From NCBI GenBank assembly GCA_029258925.1, contig JAPDJV010000032.1:1-47475 (forward strand): DNA of 47,475 bases. Reading direction: 5' to 3'. The notes under the pieces were generated by a model, which ran no database searches, was not told the origin of the DNA, and was given only the letters and a program-made list of their open reading frames with translations. Each line of letters opens with the position of its first letter. The first letter of the stretch is position 1. This stretch comes from Thermoproteota archaeon (GTDB lineage: Archaea; Thermoproteota; Thermoprotei_A; EX4484-217-1; JAPDJV01). This document shows positions 6,144 to 35,836 of this stretch, piece by piece. Made by a program: the position numbers and the translations under genes.

Positions 6144-6536
6144 CTAAACAGCATAGGATCTGTTGGCAGAGCCCTTCACGACGCGGCGAGCACCCAAACT
6201 CTTGACTATGTAGTTGAATGCTGCTTCAGGATCGGTGTGAGCACCGCACGAGTAAACGTCGACAGTTGCAAAGGAGTATTCAGGCCATGTATGGATTGCA
6301 ATATGGCTTTCAAGTATTATTGCTATAACACTTACTCCTTCACCAATCTTCCATGCCTTGCAGTCTAGCACCGTCATGTTCCCTATTATTGCAGCATTGA
6401 GGGTGATGTCCATTAGAGTATCGATGTTCTTCAATACACCTGTGTTGCACTCGTATAGATTCCCATAGACATGTCTACCTACAACTCTTCCCCCTAAACC
6501 TACCTTCCTCCTCCCAATACTCTGTACCATGTCCAT
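6144..6536 (-). CDS. speD: S-adenosylmethionine decarboxylase proenzyme (SpeD family)
   Basis: 130 residues, the length of the short archaeal/Bacillus SpeD class. The hallmark [20 protein letters not shown] carries the Glu-Ser bond where the proenzyme cleaves itself to create the pyruvoyl cofactor. The catalytic cysteine follows in CGAHTDP. The enzyme makes decarboxylated AdoMet, the aminopropyl donor for spermidine-type polyamines. Crenarchaea carry two SpeD paralogues, one of which became arginine decarboxylase. This copy has a C-terminus ([15 protein letters not shown]) unlike the ArgDC-type copy at 32315, so I assign it the original AdoMetDC role; that split is inference. The minus-strand TATA is near 6589-6596. 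Confidence 0.85.
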
Positions 6537-6806: not shown

Positions 6807-8234
6807 GTGTCGTCTCAATTGTCTAGCGAGGTTAGCGACTTAAGTAAGAAGCTTCTAAAAGCTTTCCCCGGTCTAATCGTGAACAAGAGGCTCTCGTCTT
6901 ACCAAGAAGTTTCAAGGCTTCCTAGATTCATATCGGAGTACCTTGTCTCCAAGTTCTGTGGATTAGACTACAATGAAGCCGGGTTTAAAAAGCTACTGGA
7001 ATTTGTCAGACAATACTATCCTGATCCCAGCGAGAAGAATAGGCATCTTCACAATTTAATGACAACGGGGAAGCTGACAATAATTGATGAGATAAAAGTT
7101 GAGATAGATATTAAGCGTGGAATACACAAAGTCGTCATACCTAGTCTAGGAATAGTTGATGCAGCCATAACCCCACCCTTATTGAAGAAGCATGAAAACC
7201 TCTTAACCACGGGAATGTGGGGTGTGGCAAAACTCCAATACGAGCCTTCTCTCAAGGAAGATAAGAGGACCCCCATAATACTGGTCGATTTCACTCCATT
7301 CCAAGTCTCTAAAATAGATTTAAACGCGTTCTTTGAAGGCAGAAGGTTGTTCAGCTTAGAGGAATGGATCGACGTGTTGATGAACACTATTGGCTTAAAT
7401 CCTGAGGTATATAGTGGGAGACAGAAACTTCTAACAATATCCAGGTTAATCCCGCTCATAAGTGCGAACGTTAACATGGTTGAACTAGGGCCTAGGGCGA
7501 CGGGGAAGACTTTCCTATACAGAAACACTTCCTACTACATTAGGATTATTAGCGGGGGTAGGATATCTCCAGCAATGTTGTTCTACAATATTGCAAGTAA
7601 AACCTACGGCCTGATAGCTGTAAAGGATGCCGTGATATTCGACGAAGTAAGTAGGATAGAGTTCTCTAACCCTGCTGAAACCGTTGGGAAACTCAAGGAT
7701 TACATGGAGAGCGGGATGTTTGAGAGAGGACCGAAGCAGGCTCAAAGCACTTGTAGCTTAGTGTTTCTGGGAAACATTGATTTAGAGGAGGTTGAAGACC
7801 AAGAATCCTATACTAAGCTCTTCCCGAAACAAATATCGGACTCGGCCTTCGTTGACAGAATACATGGACTACTACCTGGATGGGAGCTACCCAAGATCCT
7901 GTTGAGTGAAGTACACTTGTCCAAGGGCTACGGTTTTGTTTCAGACTACTTTGCGGAAATACTGCATAATTTGAGGAACATTGACTACCAGAGGATTATT
8001 GGAAGCGAAGTGGAGTTGACCGGGGAACCCACTATAAGAGACGAGAAAGCAATTTTGAGAACAGCTTCAGGCCTCATAAAACTCCTATTCCCCCATGGAG
8101 AGTACGATAAGAGAGAGCTTGCATTGGTCATGGATATTGCAGTTGAGCTAAGACAGAGAGTGGCTAGCTGGCTTTCAAAGATCTCTCCAACAGAATACCC
8201 CGAGAAGAAGCTTGGTTACATAGTGAGGGGGTAA
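6807..8234 (+). CDS. BrxL-type AAA+ ATPase lacking the Lon-like protease domain
   Basis: 475 residues that align by eye with the ATPase core of BrxL, the Lon-related protein of BREX phage-defence systems. Features in order: an N-terminal helical region; Walker A GPRATGKT near 228-236 preceded by NMVELG; ISGGRISPAMLFYN; Walker B AVIFDEV near 275-281; MESGMFERG; sensor-1 VFLGNID near 319-325; an arginine-finger block DRIHGLLPGWELPK near 350-363; and YGFVSDYFAEIL. Full-length BrxL is roughly 650-700 residues and ends in an S16 Lon-like domain with a Ser-Lys pair; that part is missing, and the protein stops after the helical region following the ATPase. The start is GTG at 6807 with GGTGGTG upstream. 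One base separates it from the next gene. None of the other BREX genes is present nearby. Confidence 0.8.
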   Translation: MSSQLSSEVSDLSKKLLKAFPGLIVNKRLSSYQEVSRLPRFISEYLVSKFCGLDYNEAGFKKLLEFVRQYYPDPSEKNRHLHNLMTTGKLTIIDEIKVEIDIKRGIHKVVIPSLGIVDAAITPPLLKKHENLLTTGMWGVAKLQYEPSLKEDKRTPIILVDFTPFQVSKIDLNAFFEGRRLFSLEEWIDVLMNTIGLNPEVYSGRQKLLTISRLIPLISANVNMVELGPRATGKTFLYRNTSYYIRIISGGRISPAMLFYNIASKTYGLIAVKDAVIFDEVSRIEFSNPAETVGKLKDYMESGMFERGPKQAQSTCSLVFLGNIDLEEVEDQESYTKLFPKQISDSAFVDRIHGLLPGWELPKILLSEVHLSKGYGFVSDYFAEILHNLRNIDYQRIIGSEVELTGEPTIRDEKAILRTASGLIKLLFPHGEYDKRELALVMDIAVELRQRVASWLSKISPTEYPEKKLGYIVRG

Positions 8235-8235
8235 G

Positions 8236-9957
8236 ATGAACAGCATTGTGGAAAAAATGATTCAAGAGCTCCCGGCAAAGGAGACTATGCTCGACGCACT
8301 CCTATACGCTAAGAAGAGCATTAGAGATGTTATAAAGGATTTCACTGAAAAACTTAGAAGTCTAGAAGTTGATCCGGAGGAAGCTAAAATAAGCGTCGTC
8401 AGATTGAGAGTTGAACCCGTAATGAGGCCTCCCGGCCTCAAACCTAGATACGGAGACCCAAAGCTACTTGCAGAGGAAGCAATATTCCTAGTGAAAATGC
8501 ACTACGGGGAGGAATGGGTTGCAAAAAATCCAGGTAGACTAGTTTTCCCGGGAGAGCAGAGGGAGTTCATAGGGAAGGCTGTTGTGGTGACGAGCAACTA
8601 TGGCCACCCTAGGAATGCAGGAGTGTATGTCTCACTGGACTGGACGATATCGTTTAGGATAGGGGATAAGGAAGGTGTTTTCAGAGTAGAGGAGTGGACT
8701 GGGAACTCCATAGTTGACATCCCTGAGATAAGCGTTGATGAAGCGGTTAGAATAGTTGAGCACTACATATCGAAACTGGGTCCTGAAGAAGATAAGGGTG
8801 TTGAGAGGAGTATTGACAGGATAATAGATGAACTAATGGGGATTGAGAGTAGGAGAGAGAAAGTTGAAGACCTTGGAAGCAAGCTTAGAGTAGTCATGGA
8901 GACAAACAGGTACATTGTTAGGGCAATCATTGGAAAGTATTCTGGGAAATTACTTCACATTAGAGTAGAAGTCAAGGAGGATGAAGCGGTTAGAATAGCT
9001 GAAAGAAACATTCCTCCAGGCAGCCAGATTATTGGGAAATACAGGATCGAGGATGAATACATATTCTTCTACAAGACCCTAGACGAACTCATAGCACTAC
9101 ATGTAGACGCTAGGACCGGGAAGGTTTCTAGGAGGAAGAGTTATCCGAGTATTGATGCAATAGACGAGAAAGTTAGGGAAACAGTTAGAGGCCTCTACTC
9201 GATATCTCTTGGAACTCTTTCTAGCTGGGAGATAATTCAGGGGAGGTTTATTGTCATGAAGTATACTGGCGGGGATGCCGAGGCAACGGTATCATATGAT
9301 TTAGAGTCGTCGAATACAACTCTATCAGACTTGAAATTAACGGCTTCAGGAGCTAAAATAATTGTGGCGAGCAAGACTGGAAAGAAGTGTATTGAAGCGA
9401 AATATGCTCCAGACAAGGGTGGCTACATTGTTTCAGCGGTCGACGACCTATACCAGTACACTTTCCTCGTAGATCTCAGTGGGAGGAAAATAGAGCAATT
9501 AGACTACATGGTTAAAGCAGAAGTAGCTGTTGAGAAGGCTAGGAGAATAGCTGAGAAATACGGTTTCAAAAAGGTTAGGGTCGGTGAGGCAAAGCTGGTT
9601 GACTATGGGTGGTTGGTGTCAGTGGACTCTGGACTTTGGAGACTAGATGTTCACGTAGATAAAGATACTGGGGAAATATTGATGGCTAAGCACATCTTAG
9701 TTAAGGAAAGGCTCAACAAGATTCTTCAAAAACACTTCGGGGAAGACGAAGTGGACATAGTTAAAGTTGTGAAAGTAGGGGATGATGCAACAAGGCTTTA
9801 TGTTAAAGCATTGTGCAATCAAGGATCAACAGCTATCTACGCTATGGTGGACACGTATTCTGGGGAAGTGTTGAAGTCCAATAAAACCAGTTTAACCGGA
9901 ATAATAGTGGGGAAGATAAGAGAGAAAATGCTGGATTCCGAGTACAAGGTTGCGTAG
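8236..9957 (+). CDS. Uncharacterised repeat protein coupled to the BrxL-like gene
   Basis: 573 residues with no signal peptide or membrane segment and no family I recognise. It shows several copies of a unit resembling PepSY domains: a helix with a DEAVRIxE or AVEKARRIAE pattern, then strands ending in VDARTGKV, VDKDTGEI or VDTYSGEV. Copies are visible near residues 165-180, 245-305, 425-490 and 490-555. A 19-base stretch is identical at 8737-8755 and 8980-8998, supporting recent internal duplication. The N-terminal 100 residues are distinct and include a helical start. The ATG lies one base after the BrxL-like stop with GAGGGGG just before it, so the two are almost certainly co-translated and probably act together. 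PepSY is usually extracytoplasmic; a cytoplasmic use here is odd. Confidence 0.7.
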   Translation: MNSIVEKMIQELPAKETMLDALLYAKKSIRDVIKDFTEKLRSLEVDPEEAKISVVRLRVEPVMRPPGLKPRYGDPKLLAEEAIFLVKMHYGEEWVAKNPGRLVFPGEQREFIGKAVVVTSNYGHPRNAGVYVSLDWTISFRIGDKEGVFRVEEWTGNSIVDIPEISVDEAVRIVEHYISKLGPEEDKGVERSIDRIIDELMGIESRREKVEDLGSKLRVVMETNRYIVRAIIGKYSGKLLHIRVEVKEDEAVRIAERNIPPGSQIIGKYRIEDEYIFFYKTLDELIALHVDARTGKVSRRKSYPSIDAIDEKVRETVRGLYSISLGTLSSWEIIQGRFIVMKYTGGDAEATVSYDLESSNTTLSDLKLTASGAKIIVASKTGKKCIEAKYAPDKGGYIVSAVDDLYQYTFLVDLSGRKIEQLDYMVKAEVAVEKARRIAEKYGFKKVRVGEAKLVDYGWLVSVDSGLWRLDVHVDKDTGEILMAKHILVKERLNKILQKHFGEDEVDIVKVVKVGDDATRLYVKALCNQGSTAIYAMVDTYSGEVLKSNKTSLTGIIVGKIREKMLDSEYKVA

Positions 9958-9998
9958 TAGGGAAGGGCTTCGTGCTTCCACACGGAGGGTGTAATGTT

Positions 9999-10490
9999 AT
10001 GATAGTTATTGGAGTAGATGCAGTAAAGTACGTAACTTGTCTATTAGGCGAAGCAGAACAATTGCAACCTGCAGGCATAGACTTGACTGTAGGGGATGTA
10101 AGAGTTTTTGAGGGCTCAGGCAGGCTATCGTTTAAATCCAGAACTCTGCCTAAAACAAGTAGCGTTCCTATGAGAAACGGTGTCTGGGATCTCAAGCCCG
10201 GATGCTATCAAGTAGTATATAATGAGGTTATTAGAATCCCGGGAGACTGTGCAGGAATAGTTTTGCCAAGGTCTTCACTGCTTAGATTAGGCGCTGATTT
10301 GAGGAGTGCATTGTGGGATCCTGGCTATGTGGGTAGGGGGATAGGTTTACTCATAGTGTTGAATCCCATGGGATTGAGGTTGGAGGAGAACGCTAGGATA
10401 GGTCAACTAGTCTTAATTAGACTTGAAAGAAAACCGCATAAACTATATGATGGATCATATCAATACGAAAACATTGGCGTCTCAAAATGA
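9999..10490 (+). CDS. dut: dUTPase / dCTP deaminase-family enzyme (archaeal Dut)
   Basis: 163 residues. LQPAGIDLTVGDV near the start, GIVLPRSSLLRLGA in the middle, then ALWDPGYVGRG and an ARIGQLV strand are the conserved motifs of the trimeric dCTP deaminase/dUTPase fold. The tyrosine-containing GYVGRG and the lack of the deaminase's typical extra residues fit the archaeal dUTP pyrophosphatase, which hydrolyses dUTP to dUMP and keeps uracil out of DNA. A GTG at 9972 gives nine extra residues, but GGAGGGTG at about 9984-9991 points to the ATG at 9999. The stop overlaps the next start as ATGA, so it is translationally coupled to the glycosylase-like gene. Confidence 0.85.
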   Translation: MIVIGVDAVKYVTCLLGEAEQLQPAGIDLTVGDVRVFEGSGRLSFKSRTLPKTSSVPMRNGVWDLKPGCYQVVYNEVIRIPGDCAGIVLPRSSLLRLGADLRSALWDPGYVGRGIGLLIVLNPMGLRLEENARIGQLVLIRLERKPHKLYDGSYQYENIGVSK

Positions 10491-11482
10491 TCAGATTAGA
10501 CTTAAATAATATATCGTTGGCCTCGGAGGAGTTCAGTAGAATAAGTTTTAAGCCCGACGAATTCACAGATCCGAGACTATATCCGCCTAAAGGTGATCCA
10601 AGAGAGAATGTTTTAAGATATTTCCTAGTCATGGTTGCGATGGACCATAGGACAAGTACTCCTCAAATAGAATTCAAGTCCATAATAGATGGAGCAACCT
10701 ATAGGGGAGCATATCTCCTTTATAGGCTTGGCATGTTGAAGTACTACAGCAATCCCGAATTCTTTTCACCTAGAAGACTCTCGGAAATAGGTATTGACGA
10801 AGTTAGGAACTGGTTGACGGTAAGGGATCCTAGGGGCAGAGAGGTGACGGTGAGAGACGTCGAATTAAGAACCTTACTGCTCAGAGACCTAGGGGTAAAA
10901 GTACTTAAATTATATGGTGGAGAAGTGTCTAAGATACTCGAGTTGTCGGGGAACAGGATTAAGGGTTTGAAACCTGGGATAGTTGATTTACTTAAGGATT
11001 TTAGAGCCTACCAGGACCCGGTTGAGAAGAAGGCCTTCCTCCTAATAAAATTCTTGGAGAGAAGAGGCCTTTTTACTCCGGTAGACTACGAAAATGCTGA
11101 AGTACCTGTGGACAACAGGCTGACTAGAATAGCTCTCAGACTTGGAATAGTTGTTGTCTCCGATGAGCTGAAAGAAAAACTTGTCGAATGGAAGCCTGTC
11201 TCCTACGAGGACGACGTAGTGATCAGGATTTACGTGAGGAGGGCATTCAAAATATTATCAAAGCTCTCAAACATCTCCCCACTAATACTCGATGACCTCC
11301 TATGGCTCATTGGAGCCACGTGGTGTAGGAGAGAGAGTCCTGAATGTGATGCTGTAAGAGACGTCGTAGAGCTCAATTTAAGATCTTCTAAGTGTCCTCT
11401 GCGAAACATATGTTACGCTTACAGAAACCTTGAGGCTAGGAAGCTTAAAGAACACAACTACTATGATACATGGTACTATTAG
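10487..11482 (+). CDS. AGOG-like HhH-family DNA glycosylase homologue with C-terminal cysteine cluster
   Basis: 331 residues. The middle resembles archaeal AGOG (8-oxoguanine glycosylase): DPVEKKAFLLIKFL matches the region of its catalytic lysine, VPVDNRLTRIALRLGI matches its catalytic-aspartate strand, and ISPLILDDLLWLIGA matches PPLxLDxLLWLAG. About 200 N-terminal residues and the C-terminal tail are not AGOG-like. The tail carries Cx6C followed 15 residues later by Cx5C, reminiscent of the [4Fe-4S] loop of EndoIII (Cx6Cx2Cx5C) with altered spacing. It could be a base-excision enzyme or a structural relative. The ATGA overlap with dut ties it to uracil and oxidised-base control. The comparison was made from memory, so specificity is open. 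Confidence 0.55.
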   Translation: MIRLDLNNISLASEEFSRISFKPDEFTDPRLYPPKGDPRENVLRYFLVMVAMDHRTSTPQIEFKSIIDGATYRGAYLLYRLGMLKYYSNPEFFSPRRLSEIGIDEVRNWLTVRDPRGREVTVRDVELRTLLLRDLGVKVLKLYGGEVSKILELSGNRIKGLKPGIVDLLKDFRAYQDPVEKKAFLLIKFLERRGLFTPVDYENAEVPVDNRLTRIALRLGIVVVSDELKEKLVEWKPVSYEDDVVIRIYVRRAFKILSKLSNISPLILDDLLWLIGATWCRRESPECDAVRDVVELNLRSSKCPLRNICYAYRNLEARKLKEHNYYDTWYY

Positions 11483-18073: not shown

Positions 18074-21000
18074 TTGGAAGAAAAAACGGCAGCGCCGATT
18101 ATTCCAGTACTGAACCACTACGTTCTTAAGGATTTCTACAGCGTTAACCCACCATACGCCCACGTGGCCATATACTACGACGAGGAGAGAGGGGTAACAA
18201 GGTATCAGATAATAGAACCATTCTTATCTGGCAGGGAAGTTGACATCCTTAACGATATAAAGGAGATAATTCTGGAGGAGGCAAGTCTTGAAGCTGCATC
18301 TATAAGAGATGTGGACTCCGCTAGGAGAATTGTTGAATCGGAGATCAGGAGGATTGTGAGGGAGTACGGGATACCTGTTCACCCCGCCTCTATGGGTAAG
18401 ATAGTCTACTATATCGTAAGGGACTTCATAGGCTATGAGAGAATAGATCCGATATATAGAGATCCTTATGTAGAGGATATAGTATGTCTCCCCGGCTTCG
18501 AAGAAATAGTGTTAACTGACGACCCCGTCAAAGTACCAATTAAGAAAATATTCGACGACACCTCGTTCCCTAAGATCATGCCCAGAAGAAATAGCCTAGC
18601 AGAAGTTCTTTCCCTAGACGCTTCCAAACTAATACCGGGCAAATCTAAGGTTATCGCTGTCTCGAGGAGGGAGTGCTGGGAGCATTCACTTATTGAAATA
18701 GAAGACAATGAAGGGCACTCTATATCAGTAACACCTGGCCATCCGCTTCCACTATTAACTTCCAGGGGGATAGAAGTTAGGAGAGCACAGGATATTCGAA
18801 GAGGAGACCGTCTTCTAAGGATTGTATGCAATGGGGGGAAGTCCACTAGAGTGGCTTCTGCGACTGTGAAGAGAATTAGAGATGTTCAATACTCCGGATA
18901 CGTTTACGATTTAAAACTGGATCCAAAACCATACTTCACTTCTTCTAGCGGCATAGTATTGCATAATTGTGATGGTGTTAATATTCCGATATACGTCTAT
19001 CACCGTGTCTACGAGTGGGTTCCAACAAACGTGATATTCCCTGAATGGGAGAAACTAGAGAGGTTCATTAGGAGACTAGCTTTTAAAGCAGGTCAGAGCA
19101 TAACTTATGCCAGGCCCATAGTCGAAGGCCCACTTCTACCAGAAGGCTTCAGAGCACACCTAACTTTAAAAGAGGTGTCTAGGAGAGGTGCAACTTTCAC
19201 TATTAGAAAGTATAGTGAGGAACCATATACTATAGTCGACCTCATAAACTTCAACACGATTTCCCCAAGAATCGCAGGCTACTTGTGGGTTGTAATAGAT
19301 GCTATAATAGGTATGCTCATAGCTGGTCCCATGGCAAGCGGTAAATCCGTGAGCGGAGACGAATATACGTTAGTTACGGTTAATGGTATTCCAAGAGTAC
19401 TAACATTTGATGAATTGTGGAGATTGTTTGCACATGATGTTAAGAGGATTAAAGAGTTTGATGTAGTTGAGCCATTAAACGCTTACACTTACTCACTTAA
19501 TTTTGAGGATTGTAAGCTAGATAGTACGCCAGTGGGCTTACTGATTAGACATAGAGCACCTGGGAAGCTATATTTAATAAAAACGAGACTCGGTAGATGC
19601 GTCAAGGTTACAGGGGACCACTCGCTAATAGTATTAGACGGTGAGACAGGAAACATTACGGTGAAAACACCTAAAGAAATCAGAGTCGGCGTAGACTATT
19701 TGCCGTCAATCGGTAAACTAAACTTGCAGGAGAGAAGGGTGACACTCTGCGAAATAGTTGAGGAGCTTATTAGGAATGATGTTGGAGATAGGATATACGT
19801 TGCCGTGACTAGTGACGTAAAGAGAATAGTAGATGAGGCTACTAAAAATAGTGGAGCAGGAGGACTGCGGGAAATACTTAAAACAAGGAGTAATAGGGTT
19901 GAGGTTATTAAGCTAAGAACGCTGTACGACCTCATCAAGCTAACGGGTATTAAGCCTAAGAATATAATGATAAGAGGTGAAAAAAGCACCTCTCCAATGT
20001 ACGATTTAGAGGAGATAGTAAATGACGTCGACTTTGCGAGGTTAATAGGCTACTACATGGCTGAGGGACATTTCGACGGGGACAACATCGAGATCGTAGG
20101 AGCAGACTGGAATGTAATAAGTGATATTATTGGTATATGCGAGAAACTAGGAATACCCTACGATGTAGTTAAACGCGATAACGAAGTTCCAGTAGTGAAT
20201 GTGAAATCCGTTATTAAATGGGTTATAATTGGTCTTGATGTTGGAAAGGTTGCTGAGGAGAAGGCTCTACCGTCCATATTCTTCGTAATGCCGAAGGAGT
20301 GGAAAGCCAATTTACACAGAGGCTACTTTAGTGCCAATGGTATTGTAAGTAGTGGAGGCAGTATTGATGTATCTACTACCAGCAGGAGGCTTGCATATCA
20401 ATTAATATATGCTCTAGCAGTATTCGGTATACACCCCCAGGTCTCAGTTAAGAATGGTAAGCATTATAGACTAAGTTTATCACCACACTATGCTAAGATG
20501 TTTGTTAGCGAGATAGGTCTCACTCAAGAAAATAAGAACGAGAGGATAATAAAGCCGTCTATGGAGAAATATTATGGAGCAGAGCACGGTGTTGTACCGA
20601 AAATACGGTTTAAGAAGTATGGTGAGCTGTCAGGGAGCGGACTTATAATAAAGAACATTCTAAGCGAATGTGATGGTGGAGGAGTAGAGCTAGAAGATTT
20701 ATGGAAACTTGTCGAACCTGACATAATATTCTCTGAGGTTACAAGTATTGAGGAGGTAGAAAATAAGAGCAGTTGTCACGTTTATGACTTTGAAATACCA
20801 TTATATCAGAACTTTATTGCTGGAGGAGGGATAATAGTACACAACACTACGCTGTTAAACGCCGTCTCAATGCTTATACGTCCAGAAGTTAAGATAGTTA
20901 CAATAGAGGATACCCCAGAGCTCCGGTTACCCCATGAAAACTGGGTTCCAATGATTACTAGGCCCAGCTTTGAGCCGGGAGTCCAGGATGTGACATTGTT

Positions 21001-22978
21001 CGACTTATTGAAGAGTGCTTTAAGGCAGAGACCCGAATACATAATTGTTGGAGAAATTAGAGGCGAAGAAGCGTACACGTTCTTCCAAGCAATGGCTGTA
21101 GGCCACGGTGGTATGTGTCTGCCAGGTTATGAAAGAATACCAGCAATAGTTGATGGGAAAATAGGTCTATATAGAATCGGTGATGTTATCGATAACTTAA
21201 TTGATGGTAAGATAAAGGACGTTAAGGTGTTAGCTTACGATGTGGAGAAACAGAGGGCTTCGTGGTATCCTATAACCGGATTTATTAAGATGAGGGAGAG
21301 TAATAGGTTTATTAAATTTAAGCTTGATGGAGACATTGAATTAACTGTTCATGAAAACCATCCCGTCATCGTAGCTTCGAGAGGAGGCTTCACTAGGAAG
21401 TTAGCAAAAGATGTTAGCATAGGCGACTACATACCGATACTGAAGAAGATACCCGTTCCTGAAGAAGTAGAGGAACTAGACTTAATAGAGTTCTTCGCAA
21501 ACAACAAGAATGAATATGAGATAAACGTTGTTGGTGTGGAGAAATTCTTCAAGAATGCTTCCGAGAATGAATATGAGATACTAGATGCATCGGAGTACTG
21601 TCCTCATGACTACCGAAACGGCCCGGCTATTCCACTTAAGTACTACTTGGTAGTCGAAAAACTATATGATGGCCATGTTAATATAAAGGAGTTCAGGAGA
21701 AAACTGCGATTAAAATATGGTGCAGGAGCTGGACAGACAATACCAGCAATTATACCCTTATCGCGGGGGCTTGGCTACATTATAGGCTTATTCCTAGCTA
21801 GTGGTAGCGTCGACTGCTATGGGGAAAATCGTTTACCAAGGAGAGTAGTATTTCACTTGAGTAAGAAGCTACGTGATAAAGTTATCAGCGTGATTAAATC
21901 TATCGGATTTGATGATGAAGCAGTAAGTATGAGATGTTACAGTAAATCAACGGCGCCCCACATAGTAATAGATAATGAAATGTTCGCGATACTGCTCTGC
22001 GAGTTGGTGGATGGTAAAATTGAAAGCGAAAATAGAACTATACCACTAAATATAGCCTTGAAGGCGCCAAGAGAGTTTAGAGAGGGAATACTTGAAGGTT
22101 ACTGGGACGGCAATAGAAGTGTTGTTCATGGGGATGAAAACGCTTGCAATATTATAGCTATAAATAGAGATCTCGCCGAGAGCATAGTTTTGTTAGCTAA
22201 GAGTCTTGGAATGGACGTCTCAATACATGAAATTAATAATGGAGGGGGATTTGAAGGTGGGTCAGTAATCTACGCATTGAAATTCTTAGATAGTGATCTA
22301 ACTGAGGGAATGAATATAGTAGATCCAGCGGCCAATATTGTAGTAGCTAAAAGGCCATTGGAGCGTGGGTTAAAGGTTAAATCGACATGTAACATACTAT
22401 ACGGTAAAGTGTTATCTATAGACAGATTCACCGACGACGTCGATGTCTATGATTTCGAGGTAGCGCCTCATGGTAATTTTGCTGTTACGAGTAGATGCGT
22501 TATTACTAGTAATTGTACTATTCACGGAGAAAGCATTGAAGGGGTTATAGCTAGACTTGAGGGGAAGCCTATGAACATTCCTAGAAACATGATTCCATTA
22601 GCCAAACTAGTGTTGCTCATGAGTAGGGTTAGGAGGGAGAAGGGGCCTGCTAGGAGGCTTGTGTCTGTAACCGAGATAGCGGGCTACGATCCGAGAAACG
22701 ATGAAATAATAATCAACGAGGTTTTCAAATGGGATCCCGTTAAGGATTCGTGGAATTATAGCGGTAGGAGCATATTATTGGAGGAAATATCTAAGAAGAT
22801 TAATAGGCCTCTTGAGGAAATTTTAGAGGATTGGAAAAGGAGATCTGTTGTATTGAATTGGATGGCTAAGTCTAAGCTTAGAAAATTCCAGTATGTAGCC
22901 GACATAACAAGGAAGTTCCATGCTAACCCCGATAGAGTTTACGAAATGGCTGTTTCAGAGGTGGGTGAGAGTGTTTAA
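18074..22978 (+). CDS. Type IV pilus/secretion ATPase (GspE/ArlI-type) interrupted by three inteins
   Basis: A single 1634-codon frame. Removing three inteins leaves about 507 residues, the normal size for an archaeal GspE/ArlI/TadA ATPase. The host shows the N-terminal domain, [26 protein letters not shown], Walker [14 protein letters not shown], Walker B region [14 protein letters not shown], the His box [14 protein letters not shown], and a C-terminal [17 protein letters not shown]. The protein powers assembly of pili or a related surface structure. Inteins sit at EDIV/CDG, inside the P-loop, and at the His box. Each boundary restores a family-like sequence, so splicing is expected to be needed for activity. 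The start is TTG at 18074. Its 3' end overlaps the first platform gene by 8 bases. Confidence 0.92.
18485..18967 (+). other. Intein 1 (161-residue mini-intein)
   Basis: It begins with Cys ([13 protein letters not shown]) and ends IVLHN followed by Cys+1 (CDGVNIP). The block B motif TPGHPLPLL and block [13 protein letters not shown] are present. At 161 residues it contains only the Hint splicing domain and no homing endonuclease. Removal rejoins EDIV and CDGVN in the N-terminal region of the ATPase. Confidence 0.88.
19346..20845 (+). other. Intein 2 (500 residues) in the Walker A P-loop
   Basis: It begins with Ser ([10 protein letters not shown]) and ends IIVHN followed by Thr+1, so excision creates GPMASGK-TTLLNA. 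Block B is [20 protein letters not shown]-type insert is visible: motif 1 [10 protein letters not shown] keeps its acidic residue, while motif 2 HRGYFSANG has Asn where the catalytic Asp is expected. The GK/T P-loop is a common intein site in ATPases. Confidence 0.88.
21116..22513 (+). other. Intein 3 (466 residues) at the His-box site
   Basis: It begins with Cys ([11 protein letters not shown]) and ends VITSN followed by Cys+1 (CTIHGES). The penultimate residue is Ser rather than the usual His. Block B HENHPVIV and block [13 protein letters not shown] are intact. LAGLIDADG-like motifs [11 protein letters not shown] and [10 protein letters not shown] lack the expected acidic residues at both catalytic positions, suggesting an inactive endonuclease. 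Excision restores GHGGM-CTIHGES. Confidence 0.87.
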
Positions 22979-26007: not shown

Positions 26008-26757
26008 TTAATATTGTTGTCCTAGAATTTTCTCTATTAAAGACAGTATTCTTTTTTGCTCTTCCAGTATTTCACTGATGGTTTCAACGATACCCTTCTT
26101 AAACGTCACTATTAGAGCATACTTTTTCAATTCCCGATATCTTCTGCAGTATTTTGGAATAGCTCCTTTATCAACTAAGCTCTTTATTCTTGATAATAAT
26201 TCCTCAATACTCATGTTAAGAGTTCTCGCTGCTTCGGCCGGCGAGCTAGACTTGGCCACTGCTTCGAATATCCTCAGCTCCTCCACTCCCAGCTTAGATG
26301 TTGGTGTAAGCATCAGACTCATGTATTCATCCATTACTCTCCTAACAGTGTTCCCCACAATTACCTCCAGTTCCTCCGCTGACACTAGGTAGTAGTCGCT
26401 TGCTTCAATAACTTTAACGTTAAGTTCCCTCGCTAACTCTCTTGCAGCATCGTCGGCAAAAGCTTTGCAGACTACTAGTGGTTTAAGTCCTAGTAGCATT
26501 GCATTAGTATAACTCTGCCTAATGCCTCCCACATCTAATCTTCCAGCTTTGACTTCGACAGCGTAAGTCTCTCCCTCAGGATCTCTGGCAACTAAGTCTA
26601 CTTCCCCAACCTCTACTCCCCTTATAATTATCCTCTTATGTTTCTCGATGACAGTATACCCTAGTTTCCTCAGCAATTCCTCAGCTATTCTCTCACTGCT
26701 TCTCCCCTTAGATCTCCCTGAAAGCTCCTGCATTGCTCCCCACATATTTATACTCAT
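26008..26757 (-). CDS. Restriction endonuclease-like protein with helix-turn-helix region
   Basis: 249 residues. Residues 15-75 are a PD-(D/E)xK fold: SSERIAEELLRKLGYTV, then VGEVDLVARD and TYAVEVKAGRLD, supplying the E-V-D and E-V-K catalytic pattern of RecB/Hjc-like nucleases. KPLVVCKAFADDAARELAREL continues the fold. Residues 160-215 contain LRIFEAVAKSSSPAEAARTLNMSIEELLSRI, a helix-turn-helix. Archaeal proteins of this type are annotated as RecB-like nucleases of unknown target. It is divergent from the P-type ATPase; about 50 bases separate the starts. A TATA-like element (TTTAAAG on the minus strand) at about 26770-26776 suits a leaderless ATG at 26757. Confidence 0.7.
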   Translation of the reverse strand: MSINMWGAMQELSGRSKGRSSERIAEELLRKLGYTVIEKHKRIIIRGVEVGEVDLVARDPEGETYAVEVKAGRLDVGGIRQSYTNAMLLGLKPLVVCKAFADDAARELARELNVKVIEASDYYLVSAEELEVIVGNTVRRVMDEYMSLMLTPTSKLGVEELRIFEAVAKSSSPAEAARTLNMSIEELLSRIKSLVDKGAIPKYCRRYRELKKYALIVTFKKGIVETISEILEEQKRILSLIEKILGQQY

Positions 26758-33922: not shown

Positions 33923-34510
33923 TTGGGAGAGAAAGTGTACGCCTTGTTGTTCATGGGCGATACACACATTCCTACTAGAGCTAGGAGAGTACCTCCACAG
34001 TTTCTAAAAGTAATAGAGGAAAATGAGCCCTATGATGCAATTTTCTTCACAGGGGATCTTGAGTCGGGGGAGGTATTGGAATGGGTGAACTCTATTAAAG
34101 CTAGAAAACACTGTATTGTTGAGGGGAACATGGATTATCTACCCCTTCCTCAATTCTGTATTGTAGAGTTGGGGGATTGTAAGATAGGTGTGATTCATGG
34201 ACACCAAGTGTATCCTAGGGGGGATAAGAAGAGGCTGGGGGTGCTTGCGAGTAGACTGGATGTTGATGTATTAGTTAACGGTCACACTCACAGCCCGTTC
34301 GTGGAAGCACGCGTTATCAATGGGAAAAGCATACTTCTATTAAATCCTGGCTCCTTAACTGGAGTTTGGGGTGGGGGAGGAGGATCGTTGATACCTAGCA
34401 TGATGATAGGTGTATTGGAGGCTAGAAGTTTAAAATTAGATCACTTCGAGCTATATAAAGGATCACTGAGAAGGAGGATCTTCAACATCGAACTCCCCTG
34501 TACTTCTTAG
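33923..34510 (+). CDS. Metallophosphoesterase, YfcE/MJ0936 family
   Basis: 195 residues with all calcineurin-like motifs: GDTHIP (DxH), FTGDL (GDxx), VEGNMD (GNxD), VIHGH and VNGHTHSP (GHxH), then LLNPGSLTG. This is the small phosphodiesterase family related to Vps29 and YfcE, hydrolysing model phosphodiesters with two Mn2+ or Ni2+ ions. A glycine-rich loop GVWGGGGGS is slightly long. The start is TTG at 33923 with GGGGG immediately upstream. It overlaps the convergent PAPS-reductase-like gene by 48 bases. Confidence 0.9.
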   Translation: MGEKVYALLFMGDTHIPTRARRVPPQFLKVIEENEPYDAIFFTGDLESGEVLEWVNSIKARKHCIVEGNMDYLPLPQFCIVELGDCKIGVIHGHQVYPRGDKKRLGVLASRLDVDVLVNGHTHSPFVEARVINGKSILLLNPGSLTGVWGGGGGSLIPSMMIGVLEARSLKLDHFELYKGSLRRRIFNIELPCTS

Positions 34511-35836
34511 CCTGTAATCCAAGAACTCTCTCAAGCATGGAAGCCCCCTTATTTTGTTCCAAACCCTACTGTTATCAGTCATGATCATTACTTCCCAGCT
34601 TCTCAACGCTGGACAGATATAGCATCCTATTCTATAAAATCCCTCCTCGTACAAGGGATTTGATGGGATATTGTTTGCTGTTAAATATAGTTGAACTTGT
34701 AGTCCGCTCCACATCTTCAACGGTGCGATTTGATGAAATTCCTCGTGGGATCTAGTAAAAGGTCTTTTACCCCTTAAAAGGCTCTCAGCATCTCTATCTC
34801 CAACAACAATTAGAACTCTATCCCCCCTACTGCACTCATCTCTAATGCAATTATATAGTGCTTTGATCTTGTACTTAGTACACCACCTATTATCATGCGT
34901 TGGCAAGCCGTGCTCTCTTAATCCCTCTCTAACTCCACTATATGTTACCACGACATCTACTCCAAGGATTTTAGACGTTTTCTCCACGTATTCGATATTG
35001 AATGGGAAGTCAACGCCTGTGTCCACAAATACTGCCTTCATCTTTTTTCCTCCAAAAGCTTTCTTCGACAATATCACTGCTGCAGTGCTGTCTTTTCCGC
35101 CGCTCCATGGAACGAATATCCTATCATATTCCCCGCTAACATTCTTCATGTTTTCGACAGCTATGTTCTCGTATACTCTAATAACATCCGCGTTTTCTCT
35201 TAGAATGCTTTTAAGATCGACATCGTATTCTTCAGCAACTTCTTTGACCACTCTTAACCAAGGTTTACCAGTATCTGGAATATGTAGTTCACCCACCATT
35301 ATTGGTCCATAGAACAAGTAGTTCGATGCCCCAAGACCCTTATATACGAGTAGTGGTAAGGGAACGTGTTTGTCCGTGAGACTCCCCAGCGCCTCATGGA
35401 ATCCTTCACCGTACGCAAGGTACACGTCGAATGCGGGATTGTATGCTTCGCGGATCAACGGCTTTATTCTAGGGTAGAGAATATACGTATTATTCCACTC
35501 TACGTGGTTTCTGAAAACTGCTTTAGCTCTCTCAATTTCGTGGTATATCATTTCTATTCTAGCATTTCTAACCTTACTTCTCTTAACAATGTGTACTACA
35601 GCGTTTGGAGGAAGCTTTTCCTCCACTTCTCTCCACGAAGACTCTTGAAGACCTACTAATACTATGTTGTAGGCTAGTGGATCTATTAGCTCGCTTATTT
35701 TCTCTAATGCTTTCCAAGGATCTCTAATGCCTTTAACTGTTGATACGCTAATGTTCCAGTCTGGGTAAAATGTTCTAATAGTAGCTTTAACAGCATCTGA
35801 GTCTCTCTTAGCTCTAACAATTATCTTCAGCTTCAT
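34463..35836 (-). CDS. PAPS reductase-like PP-loop protein with N-terminal extension
   Basis: 457 residues. Residues 1-235 are an archaeal extension of mixed alpha-beta pattern, with IRVYENIAVENM before the PP-loop. Residues 240-435 form the PP-loop ATPase: SGGKDS at 245-250, VFVDTGVDFPFN, and THDNRWCTKYK. Cysteines at about 319, 405, 408 and 434 can hold an Fe-S cluster, as in APS/PAPS reductases, but the archaeal members of this COG0175 branch are probably not sulphate-assimilation enzymes; RNA or cofactor thiolation is also possible. HQIAPLKMWSGLQVQLYL matches the family. It is convergent with the phosphoesterase, sharing 48 bases. Confidence 0.8.
   Translation of the reverse strand: MKLKIIVRAKRDSDAVKATIRTFYPDWNISVSTVKGIRDPWKALEKISELIDPLAYNIVLVGLQESSWREVEEKLPPNAVVHIVKRSKVRNARIEMIYHEIERAKAVFRNHVEWNNTYILYPRIKPLIREAYNPAFDVYLAYGEGFHEALGSLTDKHVPLPLLVYKGLGASNYLFYGPIMVGELHIPDTGKPWLRVVKEVAEEYDVDLKSILRENADVIRVYENIAVENMKNVSGEYDRIFVPWSGGKDSTAAVILSKKAFGGKKMKAVFVDTGVDFPFNIEYVEKTSKILGVDVVVTYSGVREGLREHGLPTHDNRWCTKYKIKALYNCIRDECSRGDRVLIVVGDRDAESLLRGKRPFTRSHEEFHQIAPLKMWSGLQVQLYLTANNIPSNPLYEEGFYRIGCYICPALRSWEVMIMTDNSRVWNKIRGLPCLREFLDYRLRSTGEFDVEDPPSQ

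Follow-up and report, generated by a model that had tools for sequence, protein, structure and literature searches.

A short-form BrxL ATPase and a soluble PepSY-repeat protein: a probable two-gene module in Thermoproteota

How might a BrxL ATPase operate when none of its customary BREX companions adjoins it, and what is a soluble protein with PepSY-like repeats doing immediately downstream? The work consulted on BrxL dealt with the protein inside multi-gene systems. The locus of interest here lies in a contig of 47,475 nucleotides from a Thermoproteota archaeon, hereafter referred to as the window. Its relevant features are as follows.

6807..8234, + strand: short-form BrxL AAA+ ATPase, 475 residues (TIGR02688, 521 bits, E = 1.7e-156)
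6861..7241, + strand: BrxL N-terminal DNA-binding region, residues 19-145 (PF20442 BrxL_N, 104.7 bits)
7278..8210, + strand: BrxL AAA+ ATPase domain, residues 158-468 (PF13337 BrxL_ATPase, 385.2 bits)
7488..7511, + strand: Walker A motif, GPRATGKT, residues 228-235 (from the sequence; GP..TGK is invariant in the BrxL alignment)
7632..7646, + strand: Walker B motif, VIFDE, residues 276-280 (from the alignment with Acinetobacter BrxL)
8236..9957, + strand: soluble PepSY-repeat partner, 573 residues, ATG start (PF03413 match; homologues directly follow BrxL at loci L013/L016 and L030)
8734..9930, + strand: approximately six units of a helix plus four strands, partner residues 167-565 (AlphaFold2 model)
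8977..9126, + strand: the single unit reaching the Pfam PepSY cut-off, partner residues 248-297 (PF03413, 30.9 bits versus a cut-off of 24)

The brxL reading frame begins with a GTG codon and ends with a TAA stop at position 8234. Its TIGR02688 score of 521 bits lies well above the cut-off of 329, and because the match spans model positions 3-449 of 449, the protein is complete by that model rather than truncated. It is also matched by five PADLOC BrxL models, and both BrxL Pfam domains (PF20442 and PF13337) score above their cut-offs. The N-terminal region of BrxL has been read as a helix-turn-helix-like element followed by an OB-fold (PMC12839542). The only solved relatives found were the two Acinetobacter BrxL structures (PDB 8EMC and 8EMH), and residues 7-471 of that protein (8EMC, 679 residues) align end to end with residues 10-472 of the 475 in the window BrxL. 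Glu 280 of the window protein aligns with the catalytic Glu 280 of the Acinetobacter enzyme, the replacement of which with a glutamine abolishes restriction (PMC10164562). An initial description of the locus had regarded the AAA+ core as intact and, with the Walker A motif and the Walker B Glu 280 in place, this is indeed the case. With respect to the residues lining the DNA pore, Arg 104, Ser 264, and Arg 265 of the Acinetobacter protein correspond to Lys 103, Ser 264, and Lys 265, respectively, and pore residue Lys 287 is a serine in the window BrxL. The interface leucine, Leu 134, is retained as Leu 133 (roles of the pore and interface residues as in PMC10164562). Thus the window protein resembles the Type-1 BREX BrxL of Acinetobacter in its N-terminal region, AAA+ domain, Walker motifs, and most of the tested DNA-pore residues, but it lacks the C-terminal Lon/RadA-like domain that provides the tail-to-tail interface between rings.

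The preliminary description had drawn attention to the absence of this Lon-like half. The absence itself stands. That it is remarkable does not, because the domain of the long form is a dead pseudo-protease, and both the Type-4 BREX protein and nearly all Thermoproteota BrxLs are without it; the curated TIGR02688 family is likewise a short one. Specifically, the C-terminal domain of BrxL is devoid of a Lon active site or protease dyad (PMC10164562, PMC12839542), the Type-4 BrxL is entirely without a C-terminal extension, and in 1030 of the 2913 Type-1 taxa with BrxL a nuclease domain replaces it (PMC12839542). Among 398 sampled Thermoproteota genomes, BrxL was present in 29, and the intact loci encode proteins of ∼470-507 residues with one exception of ∼682 residues, which follows a frame that by its sequence appears PglZ-like. 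The short form is the rule for Thermoproteota BrxL. It was already known, and it is the pairing that constitutes the new part of the finding.

A single base, at position 8235, separates the BrxL stop codon from the partner ATG at 8236, and the ORF coordinates thus agree with the earlier statement that the second gene begins one base later. The same description had noted no other BREX genes nearby, and this holds as well. None of the ORFs surrounding the pair was recognised as BrxC, BrxA, BrxB, or a PglX methylase, and PglZ (PF08665) was not detected in the window genome by a search that gave matches in control genomes. The BrxL gene therefore differs from its Type-1 BREX counterparts in having no PglZ, BrxC, PglX, BrxA, or BrxB alongside. 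The similarity to the Type-4 BREX/TIGR02688 protein, namely an N-terminal DNA-binding region and an AAA+ domain with no C-terminal extension, does not extend to the neighborhood: the Type-4 PAPS reductase BrxP (often fused to DUF4007), PglZ, BrxC, and DUF4007 do not adjoin it. A PAPS reductase at 34463-35836 was considered as a possible BrxP and rejected, as it is an ordinary archaeal PRK08576 protein (434 bits, cut-off 290) located 26 kb away. A methylase adjoining the pair was not found, the neighbors at 6144-6536 (- strand) and 9972-10490 (+ strand) being of other kinds, and a Type IIG methylase query gave no match in the window genome in a search that had no positive control.

Downstream of the pair, at 9972-11482 on the same strand and separated by short gaps, lie a dCTP deaminase/dUTPase-family gene and a gene weakly similar to AGOG DNA glycosylase, which may be co-transcribed with it. 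The idea that the former is a defence deaminase of the same module is unsupported: in the second family carrying the pair (see below) it does not adjoin the pair, and the window genome has two DCD-family genes. Elsewhere in the window are a secretion-ATPase reading frame of 1634 residues with apparently several inteins (18074-22978, + strand), one of which seems to split a Walker A motif (ASGKS ... HNTTLLNA), and a protein that combines an Mrr/UPF0102-like nuclease domain with a helix-turn-helix region (26008-26757, - strand).

The window partner shows neither a signal-like start nor a transmembrane-like stretch upon sequence inspection, and its contents of acidic and basic residues are equal. 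An AlphaFold2 model built from four homologues has a mean pLDDT of 74, rising to ∼80-93 at residues 240-440. From residue 167 onward it displays some six repeats of a helix plus four strands, with the N-terminal part before this point being poorly predicted. The pTM of 0.49 means that the mutual arrangement of the units is not to be trusted. Pieces of the partner profile compared with one another matched weakly, with a best probability of 30%. A fold search with the model yielded no meaningful PDB match (TM ∼0.1), and the Foldseek matches to β-propellers and other folds were discarded given a TM of ∼0.1 and rmsd values exceeding 20 Å across hundreds of columns. The homologue in one related genome, G080, had no Pfam match at an E of 0.01. 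The protein is akin to the PF03413 PepSY family in that one unit passes the Pfam cut-off and the model repeats the helix and four strands; it differs in being soluble, in apparently carrying about six units in tandem, and in lacking any protease or membrane portion. Elsewhere, PepSY domains are known chiefly from proteins outside the cytoplasm, and no precedent was found for a PepSY role in DNA work.

Is the pairing fortuitous? Within the 229 genomes of the class, BrxL is found in 12 and the partner in four: the window genome itself and, within a family designated f14, three of its four members. The partner is absent from the other 225, including the three others in this set from the same order as the window genome. 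Among 98 relatives, the one other genome with a partner was G080, where it adjoins BrxL. The two genes are adjacent in the window genome (G000), G080, and G423. In the wider scan, the BrxL gene runs up to or into that of the partner in JALVFK010000039 (Desulfurococcales archaeon A1 bin.023; taken as G423). The contig ends inside BrxL in JALUDQ010000117 (taken as G425), and in G424 the partner lies at a contig end, with the contig breaking off inside its gene. The f14 sample comprises these four draft genomes (G080, G423, G424, and G425), in three of which a contig breaks inside the pair. Wherever contigs allow a look across the 229 genomes, the partner directly follows BrxL and is never found apart from it. 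Weak matches in G305 (E = 3e-4) and in contig C63 of G423 (E = 2e-4) were classed as single PepSY-like stretches rather than whole-protein homologues. In f14 the pair occupies one fixed place, with cysS beside BrxL in three genomes and the genes following the partner common to G080 and G423. The two lineages belong to different orders, and their loci are unrelated, yet the gene order within the pair is the same, with a gap of one to a few bases or an overlap. The earlier suggestion that the two genes act together is thus supported by their being neighbors again in a distant family, where the surrounding locus is unrelated. No description of a BrxL-PepSY pair was found in the open-licence PubMed Central literature, and the two genes probably constitute a real, undescribed two-gene module.

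Between the two pair-carrying lineages, the BrxL proteins are 57% identical and the partners 28%, and with identities this low between two families the link between the two genes is old. Between the f14 genera the corresponding values are 68% for BrxL, 42% for the partner, and 81% for cysS, and within an f14 genus BrxL and the partner are each ∼97% identical. The dN/dS values within that genus are 0.089 for BrxL (275 residues), 0.07 for the partner, and 0.046 for cysS; therefore, both genes of the pair are kept by purifying selection in f14. In the BrxL tree, for which alone the two ends of the G423 BrxL, which lie on separate contigs of the same assembly, were joined in one row, the group formed by the paired sequences also takes in L025, a BREX BrxL on a long branch (97/95). 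That the paired BrxLs form one clade by themselves is not rejected (p-AU 0.356), nor is it shown by the tree.

The partner evolves faster than the ATPase, and this, together with the tight spacing of the two genes, would be expected if it were an inhibitor or antidote whose PepSY units keep BrxL switched off as long as no invader perturbs the complex, in the manner of a toxin-antitoxin defence. PepSY domains are classically part of the inhibitory propeptides of peptidases. Such inhibition is known for proteases, however, and BrxL is not a protease; it is, moreover, the first gene of the operon. We consider this explanation improbable.

The base composition and codon use of the pair are native to the window genome and give no sign of a recent horizontal transfer, although an older one may have taken place. 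Carriage of the pair by mobile elements was likewise rejected, as the searches made for the partner gave no match among plasmids, phages, or viral collections and contigs. BrxL alone was seen in 320 plasmid and six phage records, all at less than 60% identity. The native codon use and the lack of partner matches on mobile elements, along with the fixed chromosomal place beside cysS in f14 and the dN/dS of 0.07-0.09 as compared to 0.046 for cysS, are in keeping with a domesticated DNA-maintenance module. In it, the PepSY protein and a former defence BrxL with an MCM-like fold would jointly serve the host in restarting replication, in repair, or in handling the chromosome. Indeed, MCM is the closest fold of the BrxL ATPase (PMC10164562). 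One would expect a core DNA function to be more widespread, however, whereas the partner is missing from 225 of the 229 class genomes, and its divergence between the f14 genera (42% identity versus 81% for cysS) is fast. A maintenance role is somewhat unlikely, but it is a serious rival to the defence reading.

Short BrxLs keep varied company elsewhere. Of 30 BrxL loci tallied in the phylum sample, 13 follow a Type IIG-like methylase, seven (all from family f37) follow a small membrane protein, two are with the PepSY protein, one lies in a DUF1156-methylase cluster, one is with PglZ, and six are fragmentary or unclear. The gene of the first group, ∼1220 residues and resembling a Type IIG methylase-nuclease, is situated immediately before the short BrxL gene, with which it frequently overlaps; this layout occurs in many archaea as well as in bacteria of the Thermotogaceae (L009, L010, L011, L019, L020, L023, L024, L028, and further loci). 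That at L009, the one tested, belongs to PADLOC family PDLC03630 (1230 bits). Such loci are possibly an undescribed two-gene restriction module of their own. They share with the window the two-gene layout and a relative of its BrxL, but there the Type IIG enzyme is upstream, whereas the PepSY partner is downstream. In f37 (L057, L061, L062, L063, L064, L067, and L071) the short BrxL directly follows a membrane protein of ∼250-294 residues with four predicted helices, a PH-like strand domain, a disordered linker, and a conserved C-terminal tail, (R)NRIERLL, which could be a docking peptide; no methylase was seen beside these BrxLs. At L012, L079, and L080 an HmaC-like protein of ∼1100 residues precedes BrxL and genes of ∼280 and ∼170 residues follow it, with L012 additionally carrying a DUF1156 methylase before BrxL. 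The best hint in our data that BrxL is an effector with exchangeable control comes from this diversity of partners.

Given how often the short BrxLs of Thermoproteota come after a methylase (13 of the 30 loci), the pair might be considered what is left of a BREX or methylase-BrxL system after the loss of its other genes, with the PepSY adjacency carrying no functional meaning. Degraded BrxL copies do exist, at L065 and L066, the former (1468-2859, - strand) decaying in three frames beside a RadA-like ATPase gene. In the pair, by contrast, both genes are intact and, in f14, under purifying selection, and the same two genes in the same order recur at two unrelated loci in different orders. A remnant is therefore very improbable.

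The reading we prefer, albeit with slightly less than even confidence, is that of a stand-alone BrxL module outside of BREX, in which the PepSY protein serves as an adaptor or regulator in place of the BREX partners, most likely against invading DNA. The Acinetobacter protein forms a ring and binds DNA, and its ATPase activity is needed for restriction (PMC10164562). By analogy, the N-terminal region and AAA+ domain of the window BrxL would allow it to assemble into an ATP-dependent ring on double-stranded DNA. As it has no C-terminal domain to couple one ring to another in tail-to-tail fashion, the PepSY protein is probably the binding partner of the ring, either docking on it or acting as its gate. 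It may take over the contacts made by that domain in the long BrxLs, or gate loading, and in either case would decide when and where the ring loads. The choice of target would come from the partner and not from methylation, and the most likely purpose of the loaded ring would be to stall replication or transcription of the invading DNA.

The company that BrxL relatives keep with restriction-type partners speaks for such a stand-alone anti-invader module. Against a defence reading, no self/non-self mark, be it a methylase or phosphorothioation, is associated with the pair, and thus the sparing of the host DNA is unexplained. In addition, f14 carries the pair at a fixed place amid housekeeping genes, the composition of the pair in the window is native, and the partner was not seen on mobile elements in the searches made, unlike mobile defence genes. 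Fixed location and purifying selection nevertheless fail to separate defence from housekeeping. A more specific proposal, which is possible but rather doubtful, is that of a non-BREX immune module in which a soluble PepSY-repeat sensor aims the BrxL ring at invading DNA without relying on a DNA modification to mark self, this being one of several partner-swapped archaeal BrxL modules.

The pair would represent a natural, minimal BrxL module from hyperthermophiles, free of a methylase or PglZ, such that two stable proteins would suffice for the study of ring loading and its control. The variety of partners seen at other loci, in turn, suggests that BrxL is a general effector that has been reused across several systems.
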